Shown here piece after piece: positions 24,896-27,928 of a DNA stretch of 38,999 nucleotides. The notes below the pieces were generated by a model. That model made no database searches. It worked only from the letters and a program-made list of their open reading frames with translations, and was not told the origin of the DNA. The DNA comes from Acidobacteriota bacterium. GTDB lineage: Bacteria; Acidobacteriota; Terriglobia; Acidiferrales; UBA7541. How positions within the stretch are numbered: position 1 is the first letter of the stretch; each line of letters opens with the position of its first letter. The translations under genes were made by a program, and so were the position numbers. The stretch lies in the NCBI GenBank assembly GCA_003224055.1, contig QHYE01000054.1, positions 1 to 38,999 of the forward strand. Reading direction: 5' to 3'.

Positions 24896-26098
24896 ATGAA
24901 CCGCGTCTACTTCGATTACAACGCTACGACCCCCGTCGAGCCGGAAGTCCTCGACGCGATGCTTCCCTACTTCTCGGGAGAATTTGGCAATGCAGCCTCC
25001 ATTCACACCCCCGGCCAGCGGGCTCGCGGCGCCGTCGAAACCGCTCGCGAACAAGTCGCCGCCCTGATCGGCGCCCGCGCCCAGGAAATCGTCTTCACCA
25101 GCGGCGGCACCGAGTCCGATAACCACGCCGTCTTCGGTGTTGTAGTACAGGCATTCCTGCCTGTCCCTACTTCAAAAAATCCCGATCCTTCTCCCCACAT
25201 CATCACCACTGCCATCGAACACGAAGCGGTGCTGAACGCGTGTCAGGCTCTGGAGAAGAGCGGTGTGCGCGTTACTTTCCTCGCGGCAAATCGTGAAGGT
25301 CAGATTGATCTCGACGAATTGCGGCAAGCTGTACGACCGGAGACTGTGCTGATCACCGTCATGCACGCCAACAATGAGCTCGGCACCGTCCAGCCGCTCG
25401 AAGAGGTTGGCCGCATCGCTAAAGAGCGAGACATCTATTTCCACACCGACGCCGTGCAGTCTGCAGGAAAAGTACCGATCGATGTGAACAAGCTTGGAGT
25501 CGACCTCCTCTCCCTCTCCGCTCACAAGTTCTACGGTCCAAAGGGCATAGGCGCTCTTTACATTCGCGGCGGAACGCGTTTGCGCCAGCTTCTGTATGGC
25601 GGGCATCACCAGCGCGGCTTCCGCCCGGGAACGGAGAACGTTGCGGGCATCGTGGGACTCGGCAAGGCCGCGGAAATCGCGCGCGAGTCACTCGCAGCAG
25701 ACGCGCGTCGCGTGTCCACCCTGCGTGACAAATTAGAACAGGGATTACTGGCACGCGTGCCGCATGCACGTGTTAACGGCGGCGCCTCTTTGCGCACTCC
25801 GAATACGACGAACCTCGTTTTTCCGGGTATCGAAGGCGAAGCGCTCCTCATTGCCCTCGACTTGAAAGGGCTCGCTTGCTCGACCGGAGCCGCCTGTTCT
25901 TCCGGCGCGGTGGAACCGTCGCACGTTCTGACGGCCATTGGTCTGCCCCCGGAAGAAGCTCGCGCCAGTCTGCGATTCAGTCTCGGCCGCCACACTACAG
26001 AACAGGAAATTGACTTTGCGCTGCAAGTCGTTCCTTCCGCCGTGGAGCAGCTTCGCGAGTTGTCGCCAACCTATCCAAAAGTGGCGGAAGCCCGGTAA
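24896..26098 (+). CDS. iscS: cysteine desulfurase (IscS/NifS) with an in-frame palindrome insertion
   Basis: 400 aa from ATG 24896 (MNRVYFDYNATTP); a GTG 12 nt upstream is in frame. This PLP enzyme takes sulfur from cysteine for Fe-S clusters and tRNA thiolation. Visible marks are FTSGGTESDN, the aldimine lysine Lys211 in SLSAHKFYGPKG, RPGTENVAGIVGLG, and the catalytic Cys334 in TGAACSSGAVEPSHVL. Residues 83-98 (from VVQAFLPVPT to DPSP), between the GTESDN strand and HIITTAIEHEAV, are about ten residues longer than in E. coli IscS. The DNA there (25142-25170) is a palindrome related to the one at 27360. It is 48 nt ahead of mnmA. Confidence 0.95.
   Translation: MNRVYFDYNATTPVEPEVLDAMLPYFSGEFGNAASIHTPGQRARGAVETAREQVAALIGARAQEIVFTSGGTESDNHAVFGVVVQAFLPVPTSKNPDPSPHIITTAIEHEAVLNACQALEKSGVRVTFLAANREGQIDLDELRQAVRPETVLITVMHANNELGTVQPLEEVGRIAKERDIYFHTDAVQSAGKVPIDVNKLGVDLLSLSAHKFYGPKGIGALYIRGGTRLRQLLYGGHHQRGFRPGTENVAGIVGLGKAAEIARESLAADARRVSTLRDKLEQGLLARVPHARVNGGASLRTPNTTNLVFPGIEGEALLIALDLKGLACSTGAACSSGAVEPSHVLTAIGLPPEEARASLRFSLGRHTTEQEIDFALQVVPSAVEQLRELSPTYPKVAEAR
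25142..25170. repeat. short palindrome inserted in frame within iscS
   Basis: The arms ACAGGCA and TGCCTGT, with outer GTAG/CTAC, make a 29-nt imperfect palindrome that exactly fills codons 83-92 of iscS. Its reverse complement aligns with the palindrome at 27360-27383 (GGGACAG-x-CA-x-GAATG core). The outer pairs next to GTAG have decayed (TA opposite CC). Confidence 0.75.
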
Positions 26099-26146: not shown

Positions 26147-27298
26147 ATGACCACGACTACCCAATTCGATACGCTTCCGGAACGCGCAGAAATCCAGCGC
26201 GGCCTCGTCGCCGTCGCCATGTCCGGCGGTGTAGATTCCTCCACCGTTCCAGCGCTGCTCCAGGAACAAGGCCGCCCTGTCGTAGGCTTGACGATGCAGC
26301 TCTGGAATCAGCGCCGCCTTCCCGAACTGCAAGGCGATGGACCCGCACAGCACCGCTGCTGCTCGCTCGATGATGTCTACGACGCAAAAGCGGTGGCGCA
26401 GCATTTGAAGTTCCCGCATTACGTGGTGAACTTCGAGGCGCAATTTGAAGAGCGCGTCGTTCGCCCTTTCGTTAATCAATACCTTTCCGGCCGCACGCCC
26501 ATTGCCTGCACCAACTGCAACACGGACGTGAAGTTTGAGCCGCTGCTACGCATGGCGCGTCAGATCGGCGCCGAGCGGCTCGCCACCGGGCACTACGCAC
26601 GCATCCGCAAGAACGACGTCACCGGTCGCTGGGAATTGTTGCGCGCAAGAGACGAGAGCAAGGATCAATCCTATTTCCTTTGGGGCTTGTCGCAGCAGCA
26701 GCTTTCGCGCAGCGAATTCCCTTTGGGCGAACTCACCAAGGAAGAAGTCCGCGCCGTCGCGCGCCGCGCGCAGCTTCCCGTGGCGGAAAAGCCCGAAAGC
26801 ATGGAGCTATGCTTCGTGCCGAATGGAAATTACGTTCAATTCATTCAGGCGTATTCGCGCGCGAGCGGAATCTCGCTGCACGGCAGCGAAGGCGAAATCG
26901 TGACCGAAACGGGCGAGGTCATCGGACGCCACAATGGTGTGCATGAGTTCACCATCGGCCAGCGCAAAGGCCTCGGCTTTGCCGTAGGCAAGCCGCTCTA
27001 CGTGATCTCCATCGATCAAAAGCAGAATCGTGTGGTCGTGGGAGATGACGACGCTCTGCGCACCACGGCGTTTCAAATTGAAGATGTGAATTGGGTTTCG
27101 TGCGACACGCCCGATGCGCCCCTATACGCGTTCGCAAAAATTCGCCACAAGCACGAGCCGGCAGCCGCAACCATTGAGCCACTCGGAATGAATCGCGCGC
27201 GCATCACTTTCGATTCGCCCCAGCGCGCGATTACCCCCGGACAAGCGGCTGTCTTCTATGACGGGGATCGCGTGCTGGGCGGCGGCTGGATCCGCTGA
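26147..27298 (+). CDS. mnmA: tRNA-specific 2-thiouridylase MnmA
   Basis: 383 aa. The PP-loop is VAMSGGVDSSTVPALL (about 23-37). The catalytic cysteines are Cys124 in CTNCNTDVKF and Cys222 in SMELCFVPNGNY. GAERLATGHYARI, SKDQSYFLWGL and HEFTIGQRKGLG are standard MnmA segments, and the C-terminal beta-barrel closes with AVFYDGDRVLGGGWI. It adds sulfur to C2 of U34 in Lys, Glu and Gln tRNAs, receiving persulfide that originates on IscS, encoded just upstream. The insertion around PELQGDGPAQHRCCSLDDVYDA is longer than in E. coli but occurs in other bacterial MnmA proteins. Confidence 0.96.
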   Translation: MTTTTQFDTLPERAEIQRGLVAVAMSGGVDSSTVPALLQEQGRPVVGLTMQLWNQRRLPELQGDGPAQHRCCSLDDVYDAKAVAQHLKFPHYVVNFEAQFEERVVRPFVNQYLSGRTPIACTNCNTDVKFEPLLRMARQIGAERLATGHYARIRKNDVTGRWELLRARDESKDQSYFLWGLSQQQLSRSEFPLGELTKEEVRAVARRAQLPVAEKPESMELCFVPNGNYVQFIQAYSRASGISLHGSEGEIVTETGEVIGRHNGVHEFTIGQRKGLGFAVGKPLYVISIDQKQNRVVVGDDDALRTTAFQIEDVNWVSCDTPDAPLYAFAKIRHKHEPAAATIEPLGMNRARITFDSPQRAITPGQAAVFYDGDRVLGGGWIR

Positions 27299-27348: not shown

Positions 27349-27383
27349 AAAAATAAAAAGGGACAGACAAGAATGTCTGTCCC
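27349..27383 (-). terminator. intrinsic terminator of the DUF948 gene, built from a repeat palindrome
   Basis: GGGACAGACA (27360-27369) pairs perfectly with TGTCTGTCCC (27374-27383). On the minus strand the hairpin is followed at once by TTTTTATTTTT (plus 27349-27359), the textbook terminator form, 30 nt after the DUF948 stop. In the plus direction there is no T-tract, so it would serve mnmA poorly. Confidence 0.85.
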
Positions 27384-27412
27384 CGTCTAATATCGAATCG
27401 CGGTTGTTCAGC

Positions 27413-27928
27413 TCAAATAAATAGCTCTTCTTCTTGCTGTTCGCGCGGATCGTCGCGGCGGGAGCCTCGGCCGCGCCGCGAGCGGAGAAGATCGAGGCCC
27501 ACCTTAATTCCCTGCACCAGCGCAGACGCCTTCTGCACCGGACGCCAAAAATTGTGCTTGAACTTCGATCCCGCATCTTCCACAGCTTCGAGCGTGCCCG
27601 TCAAAATTCGGTCGGCATGAACGAGTTGGCCGCGCAACCGGTCCGAGGCCTCCGTCAATACGCGGTCGATTTTCTGCGCCTGGCCGCGCGCCAAATATAC
27701 GACGTGCGACGCGTCGTTCACCATGCTGGAAATTTTCGGTTGCGTATCGTCCAACAGGATCTGGACGCGTGTAAGGATGGGACCAACACGCGCCTGTAAA
27801 TCGCTCGTCAGCCGGTTGACGTTCTCCGACGTGCGGCGCATCTGAAAAAATAACAGCGTCAGCATCACCACCTGTACGACCAGCGCTATCGCCGCGATGA
27901 TGCTGAAGAATTCGAGCCAGAATTGCAT
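27413..27928 (-). CDS. DUF948-type single-pass membrane protein
   Basis: 171 aa. One N-terminal transmembrane segment (about 6-28, FSIIAAIALVVQVVMLTLLFFQM) is followed by a long amphipathic helix region (about 30-115, with TSENVNRLTSDLQARVGPILTRVQILLDDTQPKISSMVNDA) and a basic then acidic tail. This is the shape of DUF948 proteins, whose function is unknown and which often neighbour YtxH proteins, as here (58 nt upstream). A transcript of ytxH-like plus this gene ends at the hairpin at 27349-27383. Confidence 0.8.
   Translation of the reverse strand: MQFWLEFFSIIAAIALVVQVVMLTLLFFQMRRTSENVNRLTSDLQARVGPILTRVQILLDDTQPKISSMVNDASHVVYLARGQAQKIDRVLTEASDRLRGQLVHADRILTGTLEAVEDAGSKFKHNFWRPVQKASALVQGIKVGLDLLRSRRGRGSRRDDPREQQEEELFI

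Follow-up and report, generated by a model that had tools for sequence, protein, structure and literature searches.

A palindromic repeat inside a cysteine desulfurase gene

The window, which is the whole 38,999-nucleotide stretch of DNA that was analyzed, carries an IscS/NifS-type cysteine desulfurase gene (iscS) whose coding sequence contains a short palindrome of the GTAG-tagged REP type (Table 1). The host gene is assigned from its Aminotran_5 fold together with a conserved Lys and Cys. These residues, K210 and C333, are invariant across 38 aligned sequences, and we take them to be the PLP lysine and the catalytic cysteine, respectively. The protein scores 535.5 bits with the NCBIfam cysteine desulfurase NifS model TIGR03402 (cut-off 530.75), and lies below the cut-offs of the IscS equivalogs NF010611 and TIGR02006. 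The downstream ORF, judged by eye from its SGGVDSS motif, presumably encodes an MnmA-like tRNA 2-thiouridylase. A second REP of the same family separates this gene from a convergent minus-strand ORF (27413-27928). The minus strand at 27359-27384 resembles an intrinsic terminator in form, with a T run after a hairpin. A terminator-like scan produced a match there (27384-27359); the whole stretch yielded 3 such matches, and 4.1 were expected in shuffles.

Table 1. Coordinates of the desulfurase locus, its repeats and the transposase fragment (window positions unless a locus is named)
Feature	Position	Strand	Basis or remark
IscS/NifS-type cysteine desulfurase gene	24899..26098	+	Pfam Aminotran_5 (PF00266), E 3.6e-87; 399 residues
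Expanded desulfurase loop VVVQAFLPVPTSKNPDPSP, residues 81-99	25139..25195	+	Loop extraction
GTAG-tagged REP	25142..25166	+	In frame in iscS; direct read, model R1, family pattern
REP tag, GTAG	25142-25145
REP stem, ACAGGCA / TGCCTGT	25147-25153 / 25158-25164
REP loop	25154-25157
Downstream gene, MnmA-like	26147..27298	+	ORF, SGGVDSS motif
Second REP of same family	27361..27385	-	Family pattern with 2 mismatches; R1 28.3 bits
C-terminal RAYT-like fragment	L112 1405-1842	-	145 aa
REP variant	L112 1234-1258	-	About 150 nt beyond stop of RAYT-like fragment

Positions 25142-25170 read GTAGTACAGGCATTCCTGCCTGTCCCTAC. A direct reading agrees with the first-pass annotation of this DNA that the palindrome lies in frame, and without a stop, inside the cysteine desulfurase gene. 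Counting from the ATG at 24899, it falls in codons 82-91, not 83-92 as was given there. The same annotation credited the 29-nt length with keeping the frame; however, 29 is not a multiple of three, and it is the whole loop, not the palindrome alone, that keeps it. The repeating unit of the family is about 25 nt (25142-25166), which in iscS codes for V-V-Q-A-F-L-P-V, and its stem has 7 bp in the iscS copy and 8 bp in the family. A GTAG/CTAC pairing that reaches 25170 belongs to the iscS copy; other copies printed with their flanks have different bases there. The unit is free of stop codons in five of its six frames, and the GTAG tag closes the remaining one.

REPs are defined by a GTAG or GTGG tag 0-2 nt before a hairpin in the available text of PMC6006769; the iscS tag stands 1 nt before the 7-bp stem. 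The palindrome, at 25 nt with 7 bp, is within the ranges that PMC3733652 gives for GTAG-tagged REPs (20-40 nt, stem 6-13 bp), and it has many dispersed copies in the genome, inverted pairs among them. With the covariance model R1 it scores 34.3 bits (E 2.4e-7, whole-genome search), and it matches the degenerate family pattern perfectly. When the RNA of 25130-25185 is folded, z is -5.2, and none of 200 shuffles folds equally well.

The expanded loop is placed between the helix that follows FTSGGTESDN and the strand HIITT. An AlphaFold2 model of the host protein (mean pLDDT 89.6) has a helix at residues 70-85 and a strand at 100-104. Confidence is lower in the loop, with block pLDDT values of 78 and 71 in residues 81-100. 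The REP insert is thus predicted to occupy the last part of this helix together with the coil leading to the strand.

The REP family in the genome and genus

An 18-nt core at 25147-25164 (plus strand) recurs at 27363-27380 (minus strand) with 3 mismatches, and no such copy arose in 100 shuffles of the window. This is the match to an intergenic palindrome 2.2 kb away that had been noticed in the first reading of the sequence. When the genome is searched with a degenerate pattern of 24 nt, 46 copies are found at ≤2 mismatches, of which 27 match perfectly; a reversed control pattern finds none. The usual sequence of these copies is GT[AG]G-N-ACAG[GA]CATTCYTG[CT]CTGTC. Inverted pairs occur at C10, C44, C48, C128, C130 and C133, among others, and in several of them the members start some 50-80 nt apart.

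The model R1, built from 20 copies from the genus, produces 70 matches in the genome at E≤1. In its stems, 18 cells of the 20 copies are changed on both sides versus 5.6 in shuffles, with paired change at two stem positions; because the copies were picked for variety, this covariation is only descriptive. The GACAGGC element present in iscS is here termed type A. At ≤1 mismatch, the 24-nt pattern is found in 35 of the 61 genomes searched (own genome included), with 1 to 50 copies in each. A second pattern, with CAGCC/GGCTG stems, is present at ≤2 mismatches in 32 of 36 genomes of the genus, and some of its matches have other, still complementary, stems.

Mobilization of REPs is ascribed to RAYT (TnpA-REP) transposases, represented by NF047646 and PF01797. 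These are present in congeners, whereas a search of the own genome (95.6% complete) found no intact RAYT and only fragments. Both of its PF01797 matches are weak: one is a 145-aa fragment covering profile positions 57-121, and the other reaches 27 bits in a short frame. The former has a REP variant close by (Table 1), and the two are perhaps the remnant of a mobilizing locus. R1 matches at E≤0.1 occur in 3 of 42 transposase loci (L109, L112 and L141). PF01797 is found in 51 of 61 genomes, and NF047646 has a match in G014, whose RAYT stands among other GTGG-tagged hairpins (the finder required 9 pairs; type A has 8).

Copies inside genes

ORFs spanning a REP were listed for all 46 copies, and 51 distinct ORFs extend for 20 codons or more to either side of the repeat. 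Context was judged from these ORFs and from Pfam, as a codon-usage classifier was too weak and did not flag iscS. At least 4 of the 46 copies reside in three genes with Pfam domains that span or flank the repeat, namely, iscS, a helicase and a DnaE-type polymerase. This count is a lower bound because Pfam was run on 27 of the 51 ORFs. In the helicase, a single REP lies within the match to the MZB domain. The polymerase fragment has an NTPase match (210-465) and a finger match (509-652), and an inverted REP pair lies between the two. We use the term "DnaE-type" because both more specific names were rejected: the NCBIfam error-prone (DnaE2) model scores 571 bits against a cut-off of 939, and the best NCBIfam score for a DnaE equivalog is 724 against 1002.

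Other REP-spanning ORFs were set aside as hosts when their Pfam domains lie only downstream of the REP, as in genes for endonuclease III-like protein, iPGM, TIM, GH20, laccase, PIG-L and SDR; those REPs are therefore taken to be 5' of the gene. Two further REPs are candidate intragenic copies, one in a biotin carboxylase ORF (L118), at its C-terminal tail, and one in a PAP2 ORF (L072). For the remaining copies, the 27 ORFs given to Pfam yielded no spanning or flanking domain, and several of these copies are just 5' of a domain-bearing gene.

The iscS loop in relatives

The loop was sought in 80 homologous loci, of which 13 did not fit the extraction pattern and were dropped. It has 10 residues in 61 of the 67 readable homologues. 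Among 33 genomes of the genus (own included) the shortest loop has 9 residues and the longest 44, and that of the own genome has 19; three of the 36 genus genomes (G012, G025 and G026) have no iscS orthologue among the matches listed. The insert had initially been put at about ten residues. This is nearly right for the loop, which has 9 residues more than usual, but some of these lie after the REP itself.

R1 matches the iscS loop in 10 of the 33 genus genomes at E≤0.0041, finds no match there in the other 23, and matches none of the loops in 8 genomes outside the genus at this threshold. When IscS is compared among close relatives, as the initial annotation had advised, most lack the stretch or have something else in its place. 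Six genomes carry type A in one register (G000, which is the own genome, G013, G027, G011, G028 and G014), and in G028 the hairpin is broken by mutation. The loops of G023, G016, G031 and G021 hold variant or degenerate hairpins. In G023 both arms of the stem have changed together (GCAGCCA/TGGCTGC) and pairing is kept. This stem resembles another REP type of the genus, of which G023 has one copy at ≤2 mismatches, and replacement of one REP by the other is possible. Three more loops give no significant R1 match (G029, 10 bits; G015, none; G017, 8.3 bits), and their genes are open. Here the element has decayed, and other inserted sequence stands next to it. The R1 search also matched the flanking DNA of 6 of 41 iscS loci at E≤0.0041, including the second copy in the window; REPs are therefore frequent around iscS as well.

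REPs in polymerase and helicase loops

For two other proteins, loops were read in a chosen set of 24 genus genomes, 3 of which yielded no DnaE loop. In this set hypervariability is likewise seen in the linker of DnaE and in the loop of the helicase. A strict finder of tagged hairpins detects 7 among 21 DnaE loops (0.1 expected from shuffles) and 3 among 24 helicase loops (0.12 expected), the sequences being related and not independent. The DnaE linker holds the type A inverted pair, with a similar spacer, in G000, G027 and G028 (L182, L183 and L184). In G008, G011, G030 and G032 (L187, L188, L191 and L189) the same linker holds a hairpin of an unlike, GTAGGGGC type. The type A pair is absent from G023 and G014, which the tree puts closer to G000. 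The DnaE loops of G008 and G011 are near-identical (RTLRPVGAGLAPPA...), and these genomes are not sisters on the three-gene tree. Both distributions complicate any count of insertions in DnaE, and could reflect gene exchange, loss or mixed bins. The helicase loop has type A in forward orientation in G023 and G000 (L207 and L206), and reversed in G014 (L208).

Depending on the gene, frame and strand, the REPs are read as VGQAFLPV, RTGIPACP, VGQTFLSV or GQTGMSV. Because frames and strands differ between genes, it is the DNA element that recurs, not the peptide. Peptides similar to SEAKDL, SEVEG and SGVEG recur in helicase loops L218, L222, L221, L224 and L226, and also in iscS loops L021, L022, L023 and L038. 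They perhaps derive from a further dispersed repeat, a possibility probed by a crude motif count made without a control.

Origin of the insertion

Very probably, one member of a dispersed REP family with GTAG/GTGG tags inserted into the desulfurase, at a surface loop that is short and permissive, and the insertion survived. This reading builds on the observed family membership, copy number and frame of the element, its absence in most other relatives, and the position of the loop in the model. The first-pass view of a repeat-derived element that colonized a coding sequence is in this respect supported by the relatives' loops and by the number of genomic copies. The REP would have entered the loop after the helix that follows FTSGGTESDN, presumably mobilized in trans by a RAYT-type tyrosine transposase, as the literature suggests. 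Translation of the insert would be expected to give VVQAFLPV with a short tail behind it. The core of the enzyme is left intact, and the cost to the enzyme would be small. The frame is open because the REP unit lacks a stop in five of six frames; with this open frame, the untouched core and a loop that tolerates changes in length, the insertion could therefore survive. More generally, intragenic REPs may persist only in loops that tolerate such changes. Three observations count against this explanation: no intact RAYT was found in the own genome, synonymous conservation of the insert is high, and REPs are common in the flanks of iscS.

The timing of the event is addressed by two trees built without the loop. 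In both, the six type A genomes form one clade with G023, G029, G015 and G017. In a three-gene tree of 25 genomes, this clade has a local support of 0.78. Most likely, the insertion dates to the common ancestor of this ten-species clade, in which five hairpins are intact and the sixth is mutated. A less favored alternative, to which we give somewhat less than a one-in-three chance, is a single older insertion in the ancestor of the genus, followed by variants and losses and with no repeated insertion at the same loop. G016 and G031 neighbor the type A clade on the three-gene tree (support 0.98), so that one gain suffices for these genomes, and all R1 matches in iscS require 3 changes by parsimony on this 25-genome tree. 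However, G021 stands apart and needs another gain or several losses. Thus, a single gain accounts for the type A clade, and possibly for G016 and G031 too, whereas G021 calls for another. The palindrome also occurs in differing codon registers (FG/VAQ, FGV/VGQ and FGVISSQ/VAQ), and a history without repeated insertion fits poorly with the DnaE loops, which hold two unlike REP families, and with the helicase loops, which hold two orientations.

Another reading, which we consider unlikely, is that the hairpin has been domesticated as a regulator within iscS and is kept for a role of the mRNA or DNA, such as slowing of ribosomes, stability of the message or binding of protein to DNA. Synonymous sites in the REP codons are identical in 88 of 105 pairwise comparisons; the corresponding figures are 719 of 1072 for the codons upstream of the REP and 2209 of 3727 for those downstream. 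This places the REP among the highest windows of the gene: only 9 of 364 eight-codon windows reach its identity, and five of these begin no more than three codons from where the REP starts. Such conservation is not required of a pure passenger; its cause may be constraint, codon preference or exchange with other REPs. The strong local fold and the joint change of both arms in G023 also agree with a retained function. However, the G023 stem is like that of another REP type, so replacement could account for it. Moreover, the gene remains open where the hairpin is broken (G028) or where R1 has no significant match (G029, G015 and G017), and most genus genomes have no R1 match in the loop at E≤0.0041. 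Insertion of a REP that the loop tolerates is the preferred explanation. A chance palindrome in a fast-evolving loop has next to no probability: the loop is indeed hypervariable in the genus, but the recurrence of the core, the genome census with its perfect pattern match and empty reversed control, and the 5 tagged hairpins that the strict finder detects in 41 iscS loops versus 0.1 expected from shuffles (again in related, not independent, sequences) speak against it.

Relation to known repeats

In the available text of PMC3733652 (Di Nocera, De Gregorio and Rocco 2013), GTAG-tagged REPs are dispersed palindromes of 20-40 nt with an end tag that occur mostly in intergenic regions, also as pairs in opposite orientation, and that are recorded for Proteobacteria, Cyanobacteria, Chloroflexi and the PVC group. 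The repeats described here share the tag, the palindrome size, the dispersal, the inverted pairs and the in-frame copies in genes. As far as that text extends, GTAG REPs in frame inside genes are already in print, and their hosts include DnaE2 and RNA helicases. It also gives one same-site case, in which recB of two Xanthomonas carries different REPs; our data go further, since within a single genus the same loops hold two families or two orientations. Acidobacteria are named a single time in the main text of PMC3733652, in connection with tyrosine transposases in four species; Koribacter appears there in connection with transposases whose terminal repeats are unrelated. The words "desulfurase", "iscS" and "nifS" are absent from it.

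The first-pass annotation likened the insertion to the RPEs of Rickettsia, palindromic repeats that lie in frame in genes likely to encode functional proteins (PMC3733652, available text). The likeness holds as an analogy, since an in-frame palindrome is common to both. It does not extend to the tag: RPE-4 and RPE-6 belong to a CGTC-tagged class, and RPE-1 is longer, in the same source, whereas the tag here is GTAG/GTGG. Among titles and the openings of abstracts, a coverage that mostly excludes subscription journals, we found no description of such a REP insertion for Acidobacteriota, nor one for any cysteine desulfurase. Within that coverage the phylum, the desulfurase host and the turnover of REPs in the same loops of three proteins were not found in print.

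Implications

The findings extend the intrusion of REPs into coding sequences to a cysteine desulfurase gene in a probable acidobacterium; by this protein, the nearest named records are MAGs of Terriglobia and Acidobacteria. Annotators should be aware that GQAFLPV, RTGIPACP, TGRNACPT and similar peptides, when met in proteins of this group, can stem from translated REPs instead of domains. Three proteins now offer natural series of orthologues with and without an insert, and these bear on the question of whether the hairpins are carried along without harm or have an influence on loops and expression. The repeated turnover of REPs in the same loops merits further attention. We tentatively propose, at somewhat less than even odds, that the loops of IscS, the DnaE-type polymerase and the MZB helicase are landing sites that unrelated REP families repeatedly occupy, vacate and reoccupy. 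If so, selfish hairpins would continually supply proteins with new loop sequence.
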